Shown here: positions 27,541 to 61,936 of the stretch, piece after piece
How positions within the stretch are numbered: position 1 is the first letter of the stretch
Layout of the letters: every line of letters starts with the position of its first letter
Position numbers and translations under genes: made by a program
From: Oecophyllibacter saccharovorans
GTDB lineage: Bacteria > Pseudomonadota > Alphaproteobacteria > Acetobacterales > Acetobacteraceae
DNA length: 64,000 bases
Reading direction: 5' to 3'
Assembly (NCBI RefSeq): GCF_006542375.1
Contig: NZ_CP038143.1
Location: 868,001 to 932,000, forward strand
The notes under the pieces: generated by a model
What the model was told of the DNA's origin: nothing
Database searches by the model: none
Seen by the model: the letters and a program-made list of their open reading frames with translations, nothing else

Positions 27541-29799
27541 TCAGCCAGCGCCGTCCGACTCCTGAAACACGCTCTCGTAAAAAGCAAGTTCACGTTGCAG
27601 GGCGTCAGCAAGTGTTTCAGGCGCGCGGAATCCATGGCCTTCATCGGGATAGAGATGCAGCAGGCTGTCAGGCAGGCGCGCATGCAGCGCTTCAGCCTGT
27701 GCCAGAGGCACCACCTTGTCACACTCTCCGTGCAGGAACAGGACAGGCTGGCTGATCCGCTCAGGCCAGCTGAGGGGCGAGCGGGCCAGATAGGTGGCTT
27801 CCCCGGCAGGCCAGGGCGCCACCAGACCGTCAAGGTAGCGCGCTTCGAAACGATGCGTGTCTTCAGCAAGTGCGCGCAGGTCGGTCACACCATACAGCGA
27901 TGTGCCGGCACGAAACAGCGGACCTGCAGCAAGCGCAGCCAGAACCGTCAGCCCGCCGGCACTGCTGCCGCGAATCACGCAGCGCTGCGGGTCGGCCAGG
28001 CCGTGATCGATGGCATACTGCGCAGCTGTCAGGCAATCCTGCACGTCAAGCAGCCCCCAACGCCCGGCCAGTGCCTCACGGTAAGCCCGCCCGAAACCGG
28101 TCGAGCCCCGGTAATTCACCTCCAGAACCGCATAGCCCCGCGTTGTCCACCACTGCACCTTGAACGAGAGCTCCGCCCGCGCCTGGCCTGTGGGGCCGCC
28201 ATGCACGATCACCACCATCGGCGGCGGCTGGCCATTTTCAGCGGCTTGTTTCCCTCCCGGTAACCCTGTGCAGTACGGACCGCGGGCGGGCGGCGTATAG
28301 AAAGCCCGCAATGGACCGGGGCCTTCAGTGACAGGAATCGTCAGCAGGTGCGGGCGGGCCAGATCAGCAGGCGTCAGATTTTGCGGCAACGCCCAGGCCT
28401 GCCTTACTGTATCGACTGTTCCGGTCCTGTTCCCGTGGCCCTCCTCACAAGAAGGAAGCCCCCGAAGAAGTGGGCCCGTCACCACGGCAGGCGGTTGATC
28501 GTCCGGACAGTCGATCCAGGCGAACAGGTCTCCAGTTCCCAGCGGTACCGGCACGCTTTCGGGCTGCCCTAAAATTCCCTGTGCAGGCGACCCCGGCGTC
28601 ATGGCCGGTCGCGCGGGCACGCAAACCTGTTGCCAGTGTCCCCCTGTCCTGGTTCCAGGCGCGGCATGATGCGTGTTGGAGTGCAAGCCGGACGCGGCAT
28701 CTGGCGTAAAGCAGAGAAGTTGCGCCACGCCGTCCTTCAATCCACGGGCTAGCAGCCGCCCGTCAGGCAGCGCCAGACACGTCCTCTGACCGAAAACCCA
28801 GGCAGGCAGCCCGATCTCAGCCGGGGCTGGGGGAAGGAGCAGTCGTTCCCAGCCTGTTTCTGCCTTCAATCGTTCCGGTTGTGTCTCAGATCCCTGCATG
28901 CCGGAACGCCGGAAGACTGTCGGGGTCCAGTGACGCTGGGCTTCCCCCTGATCCGGCTGGCGTTGATCCGTCAACGCATAAAGCGTTTCCCCGTCACCCC
29001 AGAAAGGCTCGATCGTGCTGGTTCCCGTATCCTGCAGCGGCTTCCAGGATGTATTGTCTGTACTGTCCTGAAAACCCTCCTGAGGCCTCCCGTCCAGCAG
29101 CACTGTTCTGGCAGGAATCTTCCCCTGACCCGCAACAAGGTCAGCTACGCAAAGACGCGTGGCCGTCCAGGGCATGAAAGGAAAATCCCATTCCACCCAG
29201 GCCAGAAACCTTCCATCTGGTGAAGGCCTGGGCGACATCATGAAATCCGCTCCCCGGGCAACGACCCTCAAAGTACCTGCTTTCTGTGAAGGAATACTTT
29301 TCTCACCACCCTCCGGCACAGACAAGGCGACGATCTCCATCACGGTCCGAAGAATTTTCCCCTTCGCATCCGTCTCATCACGTTCACAAACGCAGAAAAG
29401 TGTCTCAGATCCGAGCGCCAGATCAGCAAAACGGACACGCGGCTCCGCTGCCACCAGGCATTCCGCCCGCCCCCCTTCAAGACTGCGCCACAACCCGCCT
29501 GTGCGCCTGGTCGTAAAGAACGTTTCCACCCCTTTCCGGCCACGGCGAAAGGTCCATGCGCCGCCGCCATAATGAATGGCACTGCCCACATCGCTTTCAA
29601 GCGGGGTAAGGTCCACGAGACGGCCATCAGGACGCCGAGCAGTAACGACACCGCGGCCCTTTTCTTCAGGACGCCGTTCATGCCAGGCCAGCCATCCCGC
29701 ACCTTCTCCTTCAAGAGAATGCAATTCACTCAGAGAGCGCGAAGGACGCGTCATCAGCTCGGCTGTCAGCCAGGGCTGGAAAGATACAGGGCCGGACAT
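27541..29799 (-). CDS. S9 family peptidase (prolyl-oligopeptidase/dipeptidyl-aminopeptidase type)
   Basis: A 752-residue serine peptidase. The N-terminal two thirds form a beta-propeller-like region (repeated DGRFLAWVEWDFP- and DLFAWIDCP-like blades). The C-terminal alpha/beta hydrolase part has the nucleophile elbow GSSAGG, the catalytic Asp in GECDKVVPL and the His in PDEGHGF, in family order. A segment VVIVHGGPTGQAR forms the oxyanion region. No signal peptide is evident, so it is probably cytosolic and trims short peptides. Relatives in alphaproteobacteria have a similar length. It follows the low-GC glycosyltransferase gene by 42 bp on the same strand, but its composition is like the rest of the chromosome. 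Confidence 0.88.
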   Translation of the reverse strand: MSGPVSFQPWLTAELMTRPSRSLSELHSLEGEGAGWLAWHERRPEEKGRGVVTARRPDGRLVDLTPLESDVGSAIHYGGGAWTFRRGRKGVETFFTTRRTGGLWRSLEGGRAECLVAAEPRVRFADLALGSETLFCVCERDETDAKGKILRTVMEIVALSVPEGGEKSIPSQKAGTLRVVARGADFMMSPRPSPDGRFLAWVEWDFPFMPWTATRLCVADLVAGQGKIPARTVLLDGRPQEGFQDSTDNTSWKPLQDTGTSTIEPFWGDGETLYALTDQRQPDQGEAQRHWTPTVFRRSGMQGSETQPERLKAETGWERLLLPPAPAEIGLPAWVFGQRTCLALPDGRLLARGLKDGVAQLLCFTPDAASGLHSNTHHAAPGTRTGGHWQQVCVPARPAMTPGSPAQGILGQPESVPVPLGTGDLFAWIDCPDDQPPAVVTGPLLRGLPSCEEGHGNRTGTVDTVRQAWALPQNLTPADLARPHLLTIPVTEGPGPLRAFYTPPARGPYCTGLPGGKQAAENGQPPPMVVIVHGGPTGQARAELSFKVQWWTTRGYAVLEVNYRGSTGFGRAYREALAGRWGLLDVQDCLTAAQYAIDHGLADPQRCVIRGSSAGGLTVLAALAAGPLFRAGTSLYGVTDLRALAEDTHRFEARYLDGLVAPWPAGEATYLARSPLSWPERISQPVLFLHGECDKVVPLAQAEALHARLPDSLLHLYPDEGHGFRAPETLADALQRELAFYESVFQESDGAG

Positions 29800-29841
29800 G
29801 AAATTTCCTTTCAGGCCCTGTTCAGTTCTAGCGGCCTTCTT

Positions 29842-31377
29842 TTACAGTGCATTCCACAACTGTCCGGGCACGCAACGAGAAACCTCCTCCTGTACAGAAG
29901 GAGAAACTGAATAAAGAACACGCATGAAATCAGCATTCTCCGGCACCTCATCGAGACTTTGAAGCCAGACCAGAATATCCCGAAAGCTCGTGGTGCCATC
30001 CGGCACGAAAGGCAATGCCGGCTGAGCCGCGCTCAGGGAGGGCTGCAGGACAAGCTCCAGATGAACCTGCTCCCATTCCTGCGCAACATGGCGATTCGTC
30101 TCTACCTTGCCAAGCTCATCAACAGGTGGATGAAAAGCCATAAAAGCACCCGTCATTGGATTTGACAGCACCATGCTGTCCTGCTGTCCAGCCTTGAGCC
30201 GATAGACCAGTTTCCGTGCCAGTCGATCATCAAAAGGAATACGGAGGATATGATCCGTCTGCCCGGGAATAAAAAGCGTAATCAGATCCGGCGTCTCATC
30301 ATGAATACTGCCATAAAGCGGGATGAATCCTCGCTCTGCTGCGACTTCTTCGGACGCCTGAAGAACTTTTCCGGCTTCCGGCGAGTAATAAAGATAAAGA
30401 CCGAAATACCCTCTCAACCTGTAGATCCGGGCACTGTTCATAGGCGTAGTCTTCAAGAATGCAGGAGTGAGCGCTTTCTCTTCAGGCCTTTCATCAGTAT
30501 CTGCGTCACCGATCGGGCAAAATCCGTCTTTCAACTTTCCAACTGCCTGCCGGATCGCTTCCTCGTAAATCTTTCCCAAAGGCGCATCCATCTTCGGAAG
30601 TAATCTGTGAGGTCCATAGTCCGTCACATCGTTGCGGTTGAAATGATCCCAGTAACCTATGGAATCAGACAGATCCGCGTTGAGACGCCTTTTAATCCGC
30701 TGAATATAATGCTCCATGCTGCGGCAGATATAATGCAGGACAAAACCGTCCGTCCATTCGATATCCTGAACAGCATTAGCGCTGCTGACATAACGTCCGC
30801 TTGGACGCACGTAACGCTCCGTGGCTACATCAAACCAATGTGGATTGACATATTCATCGCCCATCTTCTCCGGACGCACGAAGCTCTTGACCAATCCGTT
30901 ATCACCCAGAGCCTCGGTCGAATGCTGGGGGAAAGCTTCCACTGTTGTAACATGCGGCCTTATAACACGATTGGCACTCCCCTGGATGCGCCAGGAAAAG
31001 GCAATGCCATCCGCGTGGTCAAAATGCTTCAGAAACTCAGGTAGACTGTCATAATGAGGTAAATAGATATATTCATCCCCATCCAGAAAACCGATCCAGT
31101 CGAACTCTCCTTTGCTTTCTTCTGCAGCCTGCATAAAACTGTCACGCTGACGCCAATAGAAGTCCGGCTGAATAAGTGGATCTGTCCGAAAAAGTCGGAT
31201 GTCGTAATGTTTGGCTGCCGCCTGGAGAAGTTCCCACGTTCCATCTGAGGAATGATCATCAAAGACAAAGAATGTCTTCACGCCCAGAGCGAGATGCCAA
31301 GCAATCCAGCCCGCAATATCTGAAAACTCATTTTTAACAAACGAAGCGACGGCAATATTCAGACTCTCGGCACTCAT
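29842..31377 (-). CDS. Glycosyltransferase, family 2/92-like, low-GC gene
   Basis: A 511-residue protein. Its first 230 residues match the glycosyltransferase family 92 / GT2-like group: VASFVKNEFSDIAGWIAWHLALGV, FFVFDDHSSDGTWELL, and the metal-binding WIGFLDGDEYIYLP (DxD-type), then EWTDGFVLHYICRSMEHY. Such enzymes add sugars to cell-surface glycans; donor and acceptor are unknown. The remaining 250 residues have no feature I can name. The DNA here is clearly less GC-rich than its surroundings (counts on sample lines give about 45-53%), and the upstream gap is very AT-rich, which suggests horizontal acquisition. No membrane segment is seen. Confidence 0.78.
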   Translation of the reverse strand: MSAESLNIAVASFVKNEFSDIAGWIAWHLALGVKTFFVFDDHSSDGTWELLQAAAKHYDIRLFRTDPLIQPDFYWRQRDSFMQAAEESKGEFDWIGFLDGDEYIYLPHYDSLPEFLKHFDHADGIAFSWRIQGSANRVIRPHVTTVEAFPQHSTEALGDNGLVKSFVRPEKMGDEYVNPHWFDVATERYVRPSGRYVSSANAVQDIEWTDGFVLHYICRSMEHYIQRIKRRLNADLSDSIGYWDHFNRNDVTDYGPHRLLPKMDAPLGKIYEEAIRQAVGKLKDGFCPIGDADTDERPEEKALTPAFLKTTPMNSARIYRLRGYFGLYLYYSPEAGKVLQASEEVAAERGFIPLYGSIHDETPDLITLFIPGQTDHILRIPFDDRLARKLVYRLKAGQQDSMVLSNPMTGAFMAFHPPVDELGKVETNRHVAQEWEQVHLELVLQPSLSAAQPALPFVPDGTTSFRDILVWLQSLDEVPENADFMRVLYSVSPSVQEEVSRCVPGQLWNAL

Positions 31378-31653
31378 TGAAGCGGCTTTCTCAATTCATG
31401 AAATAAATATGATAATTTTCATAATTTTTACCATGTTCGCATGGTGAAGACCACATACCGCCTCATCTGCCTGAAGGCCTCTTAAAAAGAAAGGCTACAT
31501 TTCATAAGCTTTCCTTCATTATGGCTGCCAGAGCATGAGAATTCATCATTTCTGCCATATTTGTTTTGATCTTGAAGGCAAAGAGAAGACAGAGAATTGA
31601 AATCGTCTGAGTTATAATAGGGTCATTGTGATCCTGTCTCACTCAGATCATGA
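31378..31653. other. AT-rich intergenic region between divergent genes
   Basis: 276 bp holding the start regions of the low-GC glycosyltransferase (leftward) and the DedA gene (rightward). It includes an AT-rich stretch at 31393-31430 with TATGATAATTTTCATA and a perfect hairpin ACCATG-TTCG-CATGGT at 31430-31445 whose stem extends with G-T pairs. No gene is seen. Confidence 0.5.
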
Positions 31654-32412
31654 ATGCTATGGTTATTTTCCTTCTCTCCACCCATTTCCTCCCGAAACAG
31701 GAGCCGCCTTCTGGAACACGTTTCTGCCTTTCTGGAACATCTCCCTCCTGATTATGCGTATCTGCTGCTGTTCCTCATCATCATGCTTGAAAGCATGGGT
31801 TTGCCGCTGCCTGCTGAAAGCCTGCTGGTTCTCTGCTCGCTTTACGCTGCCCATACCCACAGGCTGGATATCTGGGCCATCATGGCAGCCGGGTGCCTGG
31901 GGGCCATGGCAGGCGATAATTTCGGCTATCTGATCGGGCATTTCTGGGGGCGCAAGCTGCTTGAAAAGCATGGGCCCAAGGTCGGTATCAGCCGCAACCG
32001 GCTCATCCTGGGAGAATACCTGGCCAAGCGTTTCGGTGGCTGGGCGGTATTGTTCGGCCGTTTTGTAGCCATAATGCGTCTGTTCATCGCCATTCTGGCC
32101 GGCGCGACGCGCATGCCGTGGCACATCTTTCTCTTCTTCAACGCTGCCGGCGCGATTCTCTGGGCAGGGGGTTATTCCCTCATCACCTATCAGGTCGGCA
32201 AGGAAATCGAGAAGCTCACCGGGCCGATCGGCATCGTTCTGGGCTGTTTGGTGGTCATCGGGGCCATTGCGGCGATACTGGCCCTCAGACGCAATGAACG
32301 CCATCTTATGGCCTTGGCGCTGGCCGATGCCCGCCAAGGCGAGCTGCTCGTGCCGGGAATGCCTGAATCGACAGCGGGAAAAGCTATCGACCAAAGCAAG
32401 AAAGCCGATTGA
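31654..32412 (+). CDS. DedA-family membrane protein
   Basis: A 252-residue inner-membrane protein of the DedA (SNARE-associated/VTT) superfamily; members flip undecaprenyl phosphate or phospholipids and affect envelope homeostasis. The first re-entrant block LIIMLESMGLPLPAESLLVL and the second FGRFVAIMRLFIAILAGATRMPWHIFLFFNAAGAILWA carry the family's conserved Glu, Pro and Arg residues. It has four or five hydrophobic segments and a hydrophilic C-terminal tail of about 35 residues. ATG at 31654 is used, but the first 20 residues look poorly conserved. It runs tail to tail with hemJ, 16 bp between stops. Confidence 0.87.
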   Translation: MLWLFSFSPPISSRNRSRLLEHVSAFLEHLPPDYAYLLLFLIIMLESMGLPLPAESLLVLCSLYAAHTHRLDIWAIMAAGCLGAMAGDNFGYLIGHFWGRKLLEKHGPKVGISRNRLILGEYLAKRFGGWAVLFGRFVAIMRLFIAILAGATRMPWHIFLFFNAAGAILWAGGYSLITYQVGKEIEKLTGPIGIVLGCLVVIGAIAAILALRRNERHLMALALADARQGELLVPGMPESTAGKAIDQSKKAD

Positions 32413-32428
32413 AAAGCTGCCTTCGCTC

Positions 32429-32875
32429 TCAGGGCCGTACGACGATCATGATGACAATCACCATCATCAGCAGGGTCGGTACTTCATTGGCGATGCGGTA
32501 GAAACGCTCGCTGTGGGTATTGTCGTCCCTGGCGAAAGCCCGTTGCCAGCGACCGCACATGCCCTGAAAACCAAAAAGAAAAACCAGGGCGATGAGCTTT
32601 GTCCACCACCAGGCCGCGTGCCAGTCCACCACACCCGGCAGCGCTGCCATGCAGGCGCCCGTCAGAAAAGTCACGATCATGGCAGGAAGCATGATCTGGT
32701 GCAGCAGGCGCCATTCCATCAGGGTGAGGCGTGCATATTCCTCGGTCCCCGGTCTGACCTGTGTGTGATAGACGAACAGGCGCGGCAGATAGAACAGCCC
32801 AGCCATCCACGAGATGAAGGCCATGACGTGCAGGGCCAGGATCCAGCTGAGATGCGTGACAAGAAATGCCGTCAT
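32429..32875 (-). CDS. hemJ: Protoporphyrinogen IX oxidase HemJ
   Basis: A 148-residue membrane protein of the UPF0093/HemJ family, which oxidises protoporphyrinogen IX to protoporphyrin IX, the second-last step of haem synthesis in most alphaproteobacteria. Four hydrophobic helices are visible. The conserved His of LHVMAFISWMAGLFYLPRLFVYH and the Lys of WWWTKLIALVFL match the residues shown to matter in family members. It sits near hemE, as in many relatives, 114 bp downstream of the HAD gene on the same strand. Confidence 0.93.
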   Translation of the reverse strand: MTAFLVTHLSWILALHVMAFISWMAGLFYLPRLFVYHTQVRPGTEEYARLTLMEWRLLHQIMLPAMIVTFLTGACMAALPGVVDWHAAWWWTKLIALVFLFGFQGMCGRWQRAFARDDNTHSERFYRIANEVPTLLMMVIVIMIVVRP

Positions 32876-32989
32876 TGTTTCGCTCCAGTGCCGGACTGCC
32901 GCAGGATCAGACAGGTGACACTCTGTCGCAGGCCGGAAAACGTGAAATCATCCGCTCGCCTAGCAGAAACCCCTTCCCGGGTCAGCCTG

Positions 32990-33733
32990 TTAATTCACCT
33001 TTCCGAACGATGCATCCGGCGCCAGGCGCGCACGGATGAGGGGCAACGCTTCAGACAGGCTGGGGATGCGCTGGAAATGCGGTGCAGGCCACCAGGGGGG
33101 AAGCTTCCGGCCTTCAGGACGCAGCAGCAGGCAGGACATGCCGGCCTTCAGTGCCGCTTCCGCCCCGGCATCGCTGTCTTCAATCACCACGCAGCGTTCA
33201 GGTGGCACGCCGGCGGCCCGGGCGGCCTGCTCATAGACAAACGGTGAGGGTTTGGGGTGGCCGAGCGCTGTCGCTGAATGAATGTTGCCAGGCGGGAAGT
33301 AACGCTCCATATCCGCATGCCTGAACTTCATCTCCATTTCATGCGGCAGGGAATTCGAGCCGACACGCATCGGCACTTTCAGCGCCTGCAGCCCTGCCAG
33401 CAGATCAAGCGCACCTGCTATGGGCGGAGGCGGGGTCAGGTGCATCCGGTCTTCCAAGGCCTGATCACGCGCACGGATGGTTTCAGGAGCAAGCTTGCGG
33501 CCGAGTTTTTCTTGCAGAATCTCAACCACCTGCGGCGATGCCAGACCCAGAAACGTGTCATGCGCTTCCTGCGGCGTCATGGCCAGGCCCAGCTTGCTGA
33601 CGAAAGCCGAGGTGGCTTCAGCACCGATGCGCTCGCTGTCGACAAGCACACCGTCGCAATCGAAAATGACCAGCTCAAGACCCGGGCGCAGGGCATTTTC
33701 ACGGTCATGCTCTCTCTCAGACAAGGTAATCAC
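32990..33733 (-). CDS. HAD-family hydrolase (phosphoglucomutase/phosphatase type)
   Basis: A 247-residue haloacid-dehalogenase phosphatase with an inserted helical cap. Motif I is FDCDGVLVDSE with the nucleophile Asp, motif II lies in MRVGSNSLPHE, motif III around HPKPSPFVYEQA, and motif IV is VIEDSDAGAEAALKAGM. The pattern is closest to beta-phosphoglucomutase or phosphoglycolate-phosphatase-like enzymes of subfamily I; the substrate is unknown. It starts with GTG at 33733, overlapping the hemE stop by 4 bp (GTGA), so it is translated in coupling with hemE. This could mean a housekeeping role, such as damage repair of phosphorylated metabolites. Confidence 0.88.
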   Translation of the reverse strand: MITLSEREHDRENALRPGLELVIFDCDGVLVDSERIGAEATSAFVSKLGLAMTPQEAHDTFLGLASPQVVEILQEKLGRKLAPETIRARDQALEDRMHLTPPPPIAGALDLLAGLQALKVPMRVGSNSLPHEMEMKFRHADMERYFPPGNIHSATALGHPKPSPFVYEQAARAAGVPPERCVVIEDSDAGAEAALKAGMSCLLLRPEGRKLPPWWPAPHFQRIPSLSEALPLIRARLAPDASFGKVN

Positions 33734-34812
33734 ACGTCTCTTACCGTTTCTACCAGGAGGGCCACATTTTCAGGCGGCGTATGCTGCATGACCCCATGGC
33801 CGAGATTGAAGACATGGGCCCGGCCACGCAATGAATCACGGATGCGACGGGCTTGCCGAACCAGTTCCGGCCCTCCGTTGAAAAGCACCATCGGATCGAG
33901 ATTGCCCTGCAGCGTAACTGTATCCGGCACCATGGGGGCCATGGTAGCAGGATCACTCACCGTATCGAGCGCCAGCGCATTCACTTTCGTGCGAGAGGCG
34001 TATTCCGGCGCCATCACGCCTGACAGGCGCGGAAAACCGATAACGGGGATATGGGGATGGGAGTGTTTCAGCGCTTCCCTGATCTGATGCGTCGGCGCGA
34101 TGACATAGCGCCGGAAGGCCTCAGGCGGCAGGATGCCCGACCATGAATCGAACAGCATCACCGCTTCAGCCCCCGCCTCGATCTGGCCGCGCAGCATCTC
34201 GATGGTGGCGCGGGTCAGCATGTTGATCAGGCGATCGTAAAGTTCGGGCGCCTGAAGCATCATGCGCCGCGTCTGGGCAAAATCCCGCGAGCCACCCCCT
34301 TCCACCATGTAGCAGGAAACGGTGAATGGACTGCCTGCGAAGCCCAGCAGAGTGGTGGCTTCCGGCAATTCGCAGCGTAAGCGGCGCAGCGCTTCGCGTA
34401 CCGGGGCCACTGCTTCCATGACGCGGCTTTCATTCAGCCGCTCCAGATCGGCTTCGGAACGCACCGGCTCCAGCACAGGGCCGCGGCCTTCGATGAATTC
34501 AAGCGACTGGCCCAGCGCCCAGGGCAGAATCAGGATATCTGAAAACAGAATGGCGCCATCCATGCCGTAGCGGCGGATCGGCTGCAGGGTCAGTTCAACA
34601 GCCATGTCAGGCGTCAGGCAGCGCGTCAGGAAGTCGGCCCTGGCCCTCATTTCCCGGAATTCCGGCAGGTATCGCCCGGCCTGGCGCATGAGCCAGAGCG
34701 GTGGCGGCCACAGGGCTTCTCCGTTAAGGACCCGCAGCAGCGGTTTGGAAGCAGACATCCTGGTGTGAGGGGCGTGAGGGGCGGGCTGCCGGGAAGAGTT
34801 TTGCACTGTCAT
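33730..34812 (-). CDS. hemE: Uroporphyrinogen decarboxylase HemE
   Basis: A 360-residue enzyme that removes four carboxyl groups from uroporphyrinogen III to give coproporphyrinogen III. The signature PLWLMRQAGRYLPEF is present (its Arg residues bind the substrate carboxylates), as is the second family pattern GFAGSPFTVSCYMVEGGG. ATG at 34812 is used; a GTG three codons upstream and an ATG at 34758 are alternatives, and none has a strong ribosome-binding site. Residues before KPLLRVLNGE are probably a short variable leader. The 5' side faces the proposed origin; in Caulobacter the origin also adjoins hemE. Confidence 0.95.
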   Translation of the reverse strand: MTVQNSSRQPAPHAPHTRMSASKPLLRVLNGEALWPPPLWLMRQAGRYLPEFREMRARADFLTRCLTPDMAVELTLQPIRRYGMDGAILFSDILILPWALGQSLEFIEGRGPVLEPVRSEADLERLNESRVMEAVAPVREALRRLRCELPEATTLLGFAGSPFTVSCYMVEGGGSRDFAQTRRMMLQAPELYDRLINMLTRATIEMLRGQIEAGAEAVMLFDSWSGILPPEAFRRYVIAPTHQIREALKHSHPHIPVIGFPRLSGVMAPEYASRTKVNALALDTVSDPATMAPMVPDTVTLQGNLDPMVLFNGGPELVRQARRIRDSLRGRAHVFNLGHGVMQHTPPENVALLVETVRDV

Positions 34813-35221
34813 GCCGAACACTAATCATGAAAAGAAAAAGAAAGATATCCTGTCGGGGTTAAGGATGCCTGTGGATATCGGGGTACCCGGCTTTCAGAAA
34901 ATGTACCCCATTTTATTCACACTGTGTACAACTCCCGCGACCAGCCTTTTCAAGGGCTGCAGGAAACTATCCAGATTTTTCCACAAATGGCCTGTGTACA
35001 ATCCACCTTCCGTGACACTGTACGCATTCATCCCCGGTACTCAGGTCGCCGGCCCTTTGATGAACGTACAATCCCCATGTACCCCATGTATCCCGTATGC
35101 CTTCCGCTAAGGTGAGGTCGTGTGTTCAGGGGAGTCCGGCAATCAGTTCCGGTTACCGGGACTCGGGTTTTTAATGAACGGCTTTCTTTCGCCCGCTGAA
35201 TGTCCAGGAGGTCTGCGTTTC
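34813..35221. other. oriC: Putative chromosomal replication origin (oriC) between hemE and maf
   Basis: A 409-bp non-coding gap between divergent hemE and maf. DnaA-box-like 9-mers seen: TTATTCACA at 34913-34921 (full match to TTATNCACA); TGTGGATAT at 34870-34878 (one mismatch on the other strand); TTTTCCACA at 34977-34985 (one mismatch); TGTGTACAA at 34923-34931 and 34993-35001 (one mismatch, other strand). GTAC occurs eight times, at 34883, 34903, 34926, 34996, 35020, 35037, 35066 and 35079. ATGTACCCCAT is repeated exactly at 34901 and 35077, and GTACAATCC at 34996 and 35066. The left edge (34823-34850) is A-rich and could be the unwinding element. The location matches the Caulobacter-type hemE origin, and parS sites lie on both sides. 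dnaA is not in the window. Confidence 0.6.
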
Positions 35222-35968
35222 ATGTCTGTTTCGGTCCAACCGTCTTTAGAAAGTGGGGAGGCTGTGTTTCTGCCCGCTGAACGTCCTCTTATTCTGGCGA
35301 GCGGCTCTGCCATCCGGCGCCAGCTTCTGCAGCAGGCCGGCGTGCCGTTCCAGGTGCGTTCTGTCGATCTGGATGAGGAGAAACTGCGTCAACAGGCGCA
35401 GGCAGAAGGGCTTTCCATCCAGCAGACGGCCTTGGTTCTGGCAGAGGCCAAGGCGCAGCAGGCCTGTATCCTGGCAGGACAGGCGCTGCCGGGTGCTGGC
35501 GGGGAAGAGAAGCCTGCTGACAGGGCTCTGCCAATTGTGATCGGGGCGGACCAGATCCTTGAATGCGACGGGCAGATTTTCAACAAACCGGCCACGCTGG
35601 ACGAAGCGCGGCGGCAGCTTGAGCGCCTGCGGGGCCGGACACATCTTCTGCACACGGCTGTGACGCTTTGGGAACCGGTGCACGATGCACCTGCGGTCAC
35701 GGTTTCTTCTGCGAGGCAGCCGGCGCGCAGGCTCTGGTCGCATGTCGAAACGCCGCGGCTGGATATGCGGGATTTTTCCGACCGCGTTCTGACGCGTTAT
35801 CTGGAAGTGGAGGGAGAGGAACTGCTTTACTGTGTGGGCGCCTGCAAGGTGGAAGGGCCCGGTGCGCAGCTGTTTGCGCATATGGAAGGCAGCCAGGACG
35901 CTATTCTCGGCCTGCCCCTGCTGCCTCTGCTCGAGGCGCTGCGCCGTTTCGGCGTGCTTCCTTCCTGA
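35222..35968 (+). CDS. maf: Maf-family nucleotide pyrophosphatase
   Basis: A 248-residue member of the Maf/HAM1 structural superfamily, house-cleaning enzymes that hydrolyse dTTP, UTP or modified nucleotides. The N-terminal phosphate loop is LILASGSAIRRQLLQQAGV (usual form SxSPRR; here SAIRR, with the Arg pair kept). Other motifs are VIGADQILECDG with the catalytic Asp, FNKPATLDEARRQLERLRGRTHLLHTAV, and the YLEVEGEELLYCVGACKVEGPGAQLF block. The ATG at 35222 is chosen, because AGGAGGT lies 11 nt upstream and the conserved part starts soon after; in-frame starts exist at 35174 and 35120. About 30 residues precede the conserved strand. Confidence 0.9.
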   Translation: MSVSVQPSLESGEAVFLPAERPLILASGSAIRRQLLQQAGVPFQVRSVDLDEEKLRQQAQAEGLSIQQTALVLAEAKAQQACILAGQALPGAGGEEKPADRALPIVIGADQILECDGQIFNKPATLDEARRQLERLRGRTHLLHTAVTLWEPVHDAPAVTVSSARQPARRLWSHVETPRLDMRDFSDRVLTRYLEVEGEELLYCVGACKVEGPGAQLFAHMEGSQDAILGLPLLPLLEALRRFGVLPS

Positions 35969-41716: not shown

Positions 41717-42529
41717 ATGTTTGCTTACGATTTCATGCGCTACGCCTTTCTGGGCTGTCTGCTGGTAGCGCTGATCGCTGCGCCGACGGGCTGGTTCCTG
41801 CTCCTGCGCCGACAGGCCTTTGCCGCCCACGCCCTGCCGCATATCGGCTTCAGCGGGGCTGCTGCGGCTGTATGGCTGGGCGTGGCGCCGCTGGAGGGAA
41901 TGCTGGCAGCCACTCTGCTTGCAGGGCTTTTCATGGCCTGGGAAAGCCAGACCCCTCATGACACCTTTCAACTGGTGCAGCGCGAAACCATGACCGGTCT
42001 GGTCCTGGCGGCAAGCCTGGGGGTGGGGTTGTGGTGTCTCCATGAGGCAAATGGCGCCACCAACAGGGCAACGACCCTGTTGTTTGGCGATATTCTGGGC
42101 ATCACCCCAGGAGATCTGGAAGTTCTGGGCAGTGTCGGGTGTGTGTGTGCGCTTCTGCTGGCCCTTATGTGGCGGCCGTTGCTGTTTGCCAGCCTGGCCC
42201 CTGAGCTTGCCGCGGCGCGGGGAGTGAACATGCGCCTCGTGACCCTGGGCTTCATGACCCTGGCTGCCCTTGCCGCCGCTGCATGTTCGGTCGTGGCCGG
42301 TGCGCTGCTGGCTTTCAGCCTGATGATCGGCCCTGCCGCCGCCGCCCTGCGCCTGGAGCTGCCACCGATCAGGGGAATCCTGTTTTCGCTTGGAACAGCC
42401 CTTGTCCTGTCCTGGGGCGGCCTCATGTTGTCCTGGTGGACCGATGCGCCGGTTGCTTTCTGGATTTCAGTCGGTGCCGTGCTGCTTTACATGATCGCCT
42501 GCCTGGTCAGAGGCTGGCGTGCGGCCTGA
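41717..42529 (+). CDS. znuB: Zinc ABC transporter permease ZnuB
   Basis: A 270-residue permease of the ABC-3 family with eight or so hydrophobic helices. LLRRQAFAAHALPHIGFSGAA near residue 30 is the family's hallmark (usual RRxxxxGDALSHxxLPG), and GALLAFSLMIGPAAAALRL fits its coupling region. The start is ATG 41717: GAAAGGAGGT lies 7 nt upstream and overlaps the znuC stop; a longer frame from 41630 would overlap znuC. It ends 45 bp before the stop of the convergent small membrane protein. Confidence 0.88.
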   Translation: MFAYDFMRYAFLGCLLVALIAAPTGWFLLLRRQAFAAHALPHIGFSGAAAAVWLGVAPLEGMLAATLLAGLFMAWESQTPHDTFQLVQRETMTGLVLAASLGVGLWCLHEANGATNRATTLLFGDILGITPGDLEVLGSVGCVCALLLALMWRPLLFASLAPELAAARGVNMRLVTLGFMTLAALAAAACSVVAGALLAFSLMIGPAAAALRLELPPIRGILFSLGTALVLSWGGLMLSWWTDAPVAFWISVGAVLLYMIACLVRGWRAA

Positions 42530-58358: not shown

Positions 58359-59140
58359 CAGAGGCCGCCTTTTCCGTGCTGGCGCTTGAGAAGTTCTTCA
58401 GCGAGGGCCTGATAAGCGCGCGCGCCGCTCGAATTGCGGTCGTATTCCAACACGGGCTTGCCATGACTCTGCGCTTCCGAAATGCGGATATTGCGGGGAA
58501 TCAGGGTATCGAGCACCTGCTCGCCGAAAAAGCTGCGCGCATCTTCAGCCACGAGGGCCGACAGGTTGTTGCGCCGGTCATACATGGTCAGCACGATGCC
58601 TTCGAGATGCAGATCGGCATTGAAGGCGCGCCTGACGCGTTCAATGGTGCGGACCAGCTGGCTGATGCCTTCAAGCGCGAAAAACTCGCATTGCAGCGGC
58701 ACCAGAACGCTTTGGGAAGCCACCAGTGCATTGAGTGTCAGCAAGCCGAGGCTCGGGGGGCAATCGATCAGGATGACGTCATACAGTCCCTCAATCATCT
58801 GAAGCGCGTCATGCAGGCGATATTCACGCCGATCGGCATCGATCATCTCCAGCTCTGCACCTGCCAGATCGGCATTGGCAGGCATGATGTCGAGCTGGGG
58901 CACATTGCTGGGCTGGGGAAGCGAGGTCGGTTCCTCTTCGCCCATCAGGGCGCTGTAACTGCCGCGTGCGCGCTGGTCGTAATCGATCCCCAATCCCGTG
59001 GAAGCATTCCCCTGCGGATCGAGATCGACCAGGAGCACGCGCCGATGCAGCGCCAGGGCGGCAGCAAGGTTAAGGCTGGTGGTGGTTTTACCCACGCCGC
59101 CTTTCTGATTGGCGATCGCGATGATGCGGGTGCTGCTCAC
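58358..59140 (-). CDS. parA: Chromosome-partitioning ATPase ParA
   Basis: A 260-residue deviant-Walker ATPase that moves ParB-parS complexes over the nucleoid. Walker A is KGGVGKTTT, A' is LLVDLDPQGNAST, and B is VILIDCPPSLGLLT. It lacks the N-terminal HTH of plasmid ParA proteins, so it is the chromosomal type Ib/Soj-like form. The start is GTG at 59140, overlapping the rsmG stop by 4 bp (GTGA). Confidence 0.97.
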   Translation of the reverse strand: MSSTRIIAIANQKGGVGKTTTSLNLAAALALHRRVLLVDLDPQGNASTGLGIDYDQRARGSYSALMGEEEPTSLPQPSNVPQLDIMPANADLAGAELEMIDADRREYRLHDALQMIEGLYDVILIDCPPSLGLLTLNALVASQSVLVPLQCEFFALEGISQLVRTIERVRRAFNADLHLEGIVLTMYDRRNNLSALVAEDARSFFGEQVLDTLIPRNIRISEAQSHGKPVLEYDRNSSGARAYQALAEELLKRQHGKGGL

Positions 59141-61772: not shown

Positions 61773-61936
61773 TTCTGCAGGTCCGTCATGACGGGCGGTG
61801 AATTCGTCGTCAGTCAAGCGCTGGTTCCTGTTGTTCTGTTTTTCGTCAATTGCGCTCAAGCGCGCCCTGGGCTGTGAGCTGCTGATGTGGCCCGCGTTAG
61901 GACCAGGGGTCAAGCAGCACGTGTCAGGCAGGAAGC

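Follow-up and report, generated by a model that had tools for sequence, protein, structure and literature searches.

A strongly supported chromosomal origin in the hemE-maf gap of an acetic acid bacterium, with a conserved GTAC array accompanied by a putative orphan methyltransferase

The gap between hemE and maf is almost certainly the chromosomal replication origin of the acetic acid bacterium Oecophyllibacter saccharovorans (Acetobacteraceae), a conclusion that is strongly supported in the absence of initiation data. The reading that we favor, and consider likely on the whole, is that of an oriC whose GTAC sites are the targets of a conserved orphan RsaI-type methyltransferase, referred to here as MTase2, with hemimethylation timing or licensing re-initiation. 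We observed an origin placed by skew and octamer polarity, a conserved GTAC array, the co-occurrence of MTase2 with this array, and homology of MTase2 to enzymes whose genes overlap RsaI-annotated genes. The genome comprises 1.94 Mb in two contigs, and the stretch analyzed, termed the window, covers 64,000 nucleotides of the main contig (C1:868001-932000).

A preliminary description had singled out the gap as a non-coding stretch between divergent genes, and its coordinates were confirmed (Table 1); the start codons of hemE and maf were read by eye. A 99-aa open reading frame spanning the gap (34811-35110, plus strand) has no Pfam match and was discarded as a gene. The DnaA-box-like set that had been listed, one TTATTCACA and four 9-mers with one mismatch, was recovered completely, as were the eight GTAC sites within 200 bp and the A-rich left edge. 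DnaA-type boxes (TTDTNCACA) occur four times in the gap compared to an expectation of 0.05; this number was reached in none of 5,000 shuffles, and only three such boxes are present in the rest of the window. TTGTACACA matches the wider DnaA-box consensus, TTRTNCACA. The repeat ATGTACCCCAT has only two copies in the 1.94-Mb genome, and these lie in the gap as described, but the exact 11-mer is not kept as a repeat, unlike its core GTACCCC, which is conserved. The A-rich element is a probable DNA unwinding element, its melting being inferred from base composition. Of 33 relatives examined, 31 have a 25-mer of 72–96% AT that precedes the first GGTAC by 17–40 bp; for the remaining two (G042 and G122) the script had searched before an extra upstream GTAC, where no AT-rich 25-mer was present. 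The spacing between hemE and maf is 0.2–0.5 kb in most acetic acid bacteria and about 1.2 kb in Roseomonas, Azospirillum and other loci, a distance that would accommodate a single gene, probably that of COG1806. To the left of the origin (window positions 28000-34000) the GC content drops locally to 0.55, and a glycosyltransferase-type gene is located at 29842-31377.

Table 1. Features of the hemE-maf region and the MTase2 gene (window coordinates unless a contig is given).
Feature	Position	Strand	Remarks
hemE, uroporphyrinogen decarboxylase	33730..34812	-	PF01208, E 8e-117; left neighbor of the origin; ATG at 34812
Chromosomal replication origin (oriC), hemE-maf gap; almost certain	34813..35221	.	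genome C1:902813-903221
A-rich, purine-rich element, probable DNA unwinding element	34822..34846	+	25-mer, 80% AT
DnaA-box-like ATATCCACA	34870..34878	-	within conserved CTGTGGAT..CGGGGTACCC; one mismatch
GTAC 1 (GGGgtacCC)	34883..34886	.	kept in 38/39 arrays
GTAC 2 (AAAANgtacCCC)	34903..34906	.	kept in 35/39 arrays
DnaA box TTATTCACA	34913..34921	+	
DnaA box TTGTACACA with GTAC 3 inside (34926-34929)	34923..34931	-	one mismatch; GTAC in 35/39 arrays
DnaA box TTTTCCACA	34977..34985	+	one mismatch
DnaA box TTGTACACA with GTAC 4 inside (34996-34999)	34993..35001	-	one mismatch; GTAC in 37/39 arrays
GTAC 5	35020..35023	.	poorly kept: 13/32 in the anchored alignment, <40% of 39 in the unanchored one
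GTAC 6 (TCCNCGgtacTC)	35037..35040	.	kept in 30/39 arrays
GTAC 7 (gtacNNTCCC)	35066..35069	.	kept in 25/39 arrays
GTAC 8 (CCCCATgtacCCC)	35079..35082	.	kept in 34/39 arrays
maf	35222..35968	+	PF02545, E 2e-41; right neighbor of the origin; ATG at 35222
MTase2, second PF01555 protein besides the CcrM-like gene	C1:1713710-1714510		between mltA and smr

GC skew was sampled in 38 stretches of 8 kb across contig C1, in addition to the window. The skew was negative in all 18 stretches to the left of the window and positive in 19 of the 20 to its right, with the exception located at 1.55 Mb; within the window, the first four 8-kb pieces displayed a negative skew and the last four a positive one. On this sample, which is not the full chromosome for which the check had been proposed, the sign switch falls at the gap and, together with the GTAC positions kept in relatives (see below), supports the earlier suggestion of a chromosomal origin. 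GGGNAGGG octamers, which are of the KOPS type, were counted 13 times on the plus and 38 times on the minus strand to the left of the gap and 51 and 16 times, respectively, to its right (same sample), and therefore point outward from the gap, in the direction of the contig ends. A single weak match to dif was found at 1,857,221 within the sampled part of the genome. The assignment of oriC in Table 1 is based on the skew switch, the KOPS polarity, the conserved architecture and the skew minima beside arrays that have moved away from hemE in relatives. As a counterpoint, the cumulative skew minimum of the window itself, at 31,860, lies 3 kb to the left of the gap, the curve being nearly flat to 34 kb. 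In addition, no coding-strand bias matching the replichores was obtained with a crude ORF caller (84 and 68 kb on the plus and minus strand to the left, 88 and 72 kb to the right). The missing bias is evidence against an origin at this position and remains unexplained beyond the crudeness of the caller.

With 8 sites per 400 bp, GTAC is 20 times more frequent in the gap than predicted by its rate elsewhere in the window, which would give 0.40 sites (Poisson 1e-8), and none of 20,000 dinucleotide shuffles reached this number (mean 1.25, highest 7). Elsewhere the tetramer is scarce, at 0.83 per kb and an observed/expected ratio of 0.65 in 368 kb of genome sampled. GTAC triplets with gaps of up to 30 occur seven times genome-wide, four of them in the gap. 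The shuffles, together with the conservation described below, ruled out chance or composition as the source of the cluster. GANTC was rejected as an origin mark, with 2 sites in 600 bp here.

The HemE protein of the window is 70–75% identical to those of Bombella and Gluconobacter records. Within 600 bp upstream of hemE, 13–16 GTAC were counted in ten Gluconobacter (L005, L006, L008, L010-L012, L023, L025, L053, L061) and in seven Acetobacter (L014-L017, L019, L020, L022) loci and 8 in Endobacter (L024); most other loci compared had 0–3. Defining an array by a minimum of four GTAC within the 350 bp upstream of hemE, we found one beside hemE in 36 of 137 family genomes. These 137 were drawn from 150, five of which had no HemE match while eight (split or late in the list) were left out. 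In a first, anchored alignment of 32 origins (29 of the 36 plus three moved arrays), GTAC was present in 32 of 32 at four columns; two of these columns hold by construction, since the alignment had been trimmed on a GTAC pair, and the weak arrays of G099, G017, G076 and G033 as well as those of G084, G130 and G134 were not included. We therefore rely on a second alignment, made without an anchor, that comprises all 39 arrays (the 36 beside hemE and the three moved ones) and in which GTAC was kept in 38, 35, 35, 37 and 34 at the five best-kept columns and in 25–30 at four further columns. The misses at the five best-kept columns fell nearly all into the four weakest arrays (G099, G017, G076, G033). 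The GTAC sites are accordingly kept at corresponding positions in relatives, as the preliminary description had asked of its repeats. The contexts in the 32-row alignment were GGGgtacCC, AAAANgtacCCC, GTgtacA, CTGTgtacAA, CGgtacTC and CATgtacCCC, of which GTgtacA and CTGTgtacAA are DnaA boxes. Judging from these differing contexts, the only element common to the array positions is the tetramer itself. Across 33 origins no tetramer was more enriched than GTAC, which exceeded the coding background used 20-fold; inside origins it occurred at 1.68 times its second-order (trinucleotide) expectation, below TTAT and CTAT.

Three genomes (G032, G117 and G100) lack an array in the hemE gap, and a pattern search recovered a complete array about 20–26 kb away, in G032 adjoining a GMC oxidoreductase gene. 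They (G117 also as g33) were thus dismissed as counter-examples carrying MTase2 without an array. In the 100–120 kb read, the cumulative skew minimum was located at 58,875 in G032 (array from 59,534, hemE at 85,557), at 886,445 in G117 (array from 887,196, hemE at 912,080) and at 41,988 in G100 (array from 42,196, hemE at 61,931), that is, 0.2–0.8 kb from the moved array. The origin therefore follows the array, not hemE. In G121 the skew minimum also lies at the array, here beside hemE. The pattern search detected no moved array in the other 28 array-less genomes with MTase2 or in G041, G104 and G138, the HemE gaps of which were unreadable; as the pattern detects only 26 of the 36 known arrays, a moved array may have been missed. 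Bombella L003, L007 and L009, and also L013, were left out of this search. Among the controls, 6 of 63 genomes without MTase2 had one match each, with 2–4 GTAC per 350 bp around it.

The GTAC array is accompanied by an orphan METHYLTRANSFERASE (MTase2). Strong matches to MTase2 (E<1e-90, next best 5e-19) were obtained in 70 of 150 family genomes, and none of the 25 records from acetic acid bacteria that were searched (L003-L025, L053, L061) lacked the gene. At E 1e-40, matches occurred in 4 of 385 genomes drawn from the class, all of them Acetobacteraceae. Arrays were found in 36 of 67 genomes with MTase2 (39 if the moved arrays are included) compared to none of 70 without the enzyme (Fisher 8e-15, uncorrected for descent). 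No other palindromic tetramer displayed a comparable contrast, the means for GTAC being 6.2 and 0.8. In the 31 MTase2 genomes with fewer than 6 GTAC (moved arrays excluded), the mean was 1.9 versus 0.8 in the 70 without MTase2. Twenty-eight of the 67 MTase2 genomes are more distant, with HemE 53–60% identical to that of the window, and have no array (1–3 GTAC per 350 bp near hemE); thus, the enzyme does not need the array. Conversely, G066, G029 and G115 are devoid of MTase2 and adjoin the window genome inside the array-bearing group in a quick HemE tree. Their skew minimum is located at the start of hemE in G115 and G029 and within about 3 kb of it in G066, and no array was found in the 100 kb read around, which contained at most 4 GTAC per 300 bp. 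We interpret these genomes as one or two joint losses of array and MTase2, an inference from the tree. Beside hemE, G066 (L138) has 14 TTATCCACA in 300 bp (around G066:C1:948575), as though ordinary DnaA boxes had taken the place of its GTAC origin. A descent-corrected pair test (sign test) on the HemE tree was not significant; it yielded two pairs, both on starred branches, which is too few. Long branches were flagged in this tree. It deliberately omits 12 named loci; a length filter of 280 aa excluded no others, and five rows of undetermined array state did not enter the count.

The 10-kb neighborhood of MTase2 encodes HemD, SecB, Tim44, MltA, Smr, Peripla_BP_2, FecCD and ABC proteins; no endonuclease family was identified in this stretch, which does not exclude a distant or unknown endonuclease. 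The TSPPYN motif was invariant in 33 of 33 sequences, and DPFMGTGT is located near the C-terminus. With its SPPY catalytic motif and the motif order IV then I, MTase2 fits the N4-cytosine type of the PF01555 class, the modified base being inferred. Its relatives in the PDB include PvuII and other cytosine-N4 enzymes, but also m6A enzymes (CcrM, MboIIA) and DpnA. RsaI recognizes and cuts GTAC. Homologues from the cyanophages Syn19 and ACG-2014j share 45% identity with MTase2 along almost the entire protein; the similarity extends to the middle region, the expected site of target recognition. In these two of the three cyanophage regions opened, the homologue overlaps a gene annotated as R.RsaI endonuclease, and the third (ACG-2014f) has an unnamed gene at this place. 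The label is the depositors' annotation only, and Pfam gave no match for the R.RsaI-annotated protein. The best phage match (49%) came from an uncultured phage without annotation. Relatives also occur on two Paracoccus plasmids (51% identity over 95% and 53% over 64%); no RsaI-annotated gene lay beside them in the stretches shown, and on one plasmid a GIY-YIG nuclease gene is located about 2 kb from the MTase2 relative. Persistent orphan m4C enzymes for GTAC have been reported in an archaeal survey, as far as the part of it available to us goes (PMC10609329), so that GTAC m4C activity exists in nature. Based on its homology to RsaI-linked enzymes and without methylation data, MTase2 is probably an RsaI-type orphan N4-cytosine methyltransferase. 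CcrM was rejected as the GTAC enzyme, as a strong CcrM-type PF01555 match was present in 37 of 37 genomes tested, with or without an array. The CcrM-like copy of the window genome scored 608 bits against the NCBIfam model, below the cut-off of 830, and is the only copy so named.

The preliminary description had left open whether GTAC marks a regulator or a variant DnaA box. Two of the eight sites indeed lie inside TTGTACACA, but the core shared by all is GTAC alone, and the co-occurrence of the array with an orphan RsaI-type methyltransferase is an option that had not been considered. In the mechanism that we propose, DnaA would bind the TTNTNCACA-type boxes and open the A-rich element adjoining hemE, and MTase2 would mark the origin GTAC sites as Dam marks GATC in E. 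coli. Passage of the fork would leave these sites hemimethylated, a state that an unknown protein, or DnaA itself at the two TTGTACACA boxes, may recognize and that, in analogy to Dam/GATC/SeqA, would delay or license the next initiation round. Methylation of GTAC in cells, the m4C nature of the mark and its action on initiation are all inferred and have not been demonstrated. In a narrower form, m4C on the origin GTAC sites, two of them in TTGTACACA boxes, would directly switch initiator binding, a device portable with the origin and lost with the enzyme in the G029/G115/G066 branch; we regard this form as possible but would not yet lean on it. If true, it would represent m4C-based origin control in a bacterium, alongside a CcrM-like enzyme.

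Alternatively, with the gap still being the origin, the GTAC sites could form part of the binding sites of DnaA or of another origin protein that recognizes a GTAC core, so that methylation is irrelevant and MTase2 merely shares the clade. The two GTAC within TTGTACACA boxes agree with this, as do the flanks, which are conserved at each position too, and the single GTAC after the left DnaA box, which is present also in genomes without MTase2. We nevertheless consider this explanation unlikely: the contexts vary by position (GGGgtacCC, AAAANgtacCCC, GTgtacA, CGgtacTC, CATgtacCCC) with GTAC alone in common, G029, G115 and G066 lack both the array and MTase2, and in two phages a relative of MTase2 overlaps a gene annotated as RsaI. 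It is also conceivable, but very improbable, that array and enzyme are real and methylation serves strand choice in mismatch repair, phage defense or transcription, the origin GTAC being only weakly or historically selected. MTase2 is kept in the 28 family members with hardly any GTAC at hemE (1–3 per 350 bp), as such a role would allow; yet GTAC is rare in the sampled genome (0.65) with eight sites here, four positions are kept in 35–38 of 39 arrays, and origins located elsewhere have retained the array.

The dnaA gene is located outside the window (G000:C1:442-924), at the contig ends, where the skew turns from positive (1.89 Mb) to negative (50 kb). If the contig is circular, a local skew maximum lies 7.5 kb before the contig start (26 kb read). 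With hemE set as the origin and the main contig treated as a circle, dnaA is positioned nearly across from the origin, at a distance of 46.5% of the circle in the window genome. The distance was 41–50% in 9 of 12 genomes measured (G000, G013, G121, G115, G066, G029, G040, G046, G022) and fell outside this range in G099, G045 and G062. Thus placed, dnaA would lie near the terminus, and the initiator gene would be one of the last to be replicated. For A. pasteurianus 386B and A. cerevisiae KSO5, oriC has been published near dnaA, in KSO5 at the skew maximum, according to the parts of these reports available; both calls may therefore sit at the terminus. That the true origin lies near dnaA, with the hemE-maf gap as terminus or plain regulatory region, has these two published calls in its favor but is hardly tenable, as dnaA resides here where the sampled skew goes from positive to negative, the GGGNAGGG octamers run from the gap to dnaA, the oriC of KSO5 itself was reported at a skew maximum, and the hemE side is that of the experimentally identified Caulobacter origin, as given in the accessible part of that work (PMC1914354).

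The origin beside hemE with its GTAC targets, as favored here, locates the origin of acetic acid bacteria precisely and provides a natural setting in which to test whether methylation controls initiation, with relatives that have or lack the enzyme and three origins that lie 20–26 kb from hemE and carry the array. No description of such a GTAC/methyltransferase layout for acetic acid bacteria was found in the literature searched. According to the sections available (PMC1914354), the origin resembles Caulobacter Cori (hemE-COG1806) and the hemE origins of Rickettsia and Wolbachia in its position beside hemE, its DnaA boxes and its AT-rich part; it differs from Cori in having maf as right neighbor, a distant dnaA and a GTAC array. 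Unlike the cyanophage methyltransferases of Syn19 and ACG-2014j, which overlap an endonuclease gene, the bacterial MTase2 stands alone between mltA and smr. With E. coli oriC, where Dam (GATC) and SeqA operate (PMC10073500, seen in part), it shares dense palindromic 4-bp origin sites and a conserved solitary methyltransferase. However, Dam forms m6A at GATC, whereas here the site is GTAC and the enzyme a PF01555 protein with TSPPYN (N4-cytosine type); E. coli has SeqA, whereas here no SeqA-like reader is known (none was sought) and a CcrM-like gene is also present. As far as the literature searched goes, the GTAC variant, at an alphaproteobacterial origin next to hemE, seems to be without precedent, and unpublished GTAC methylomes in REBASE are not excluded. 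The closest parallel is provided by Blow et al. (2016), who, in the portions of the paper available, described origin motif clusters that track orphan methyltransferases, namely GATC, TTAA in Arthrobacter, CTCGAG in Nocardia and CTAG in Haloarchaea (PMC4752239). Those clusters lie at dnaA-side or orc1/cdc6 loci in other phyla, and GTAC is absent from what was available of the main text; as here, a motif cluster in the origin gap tracks an orphan methyltransferase across relatives, so that the kind of system is already known.
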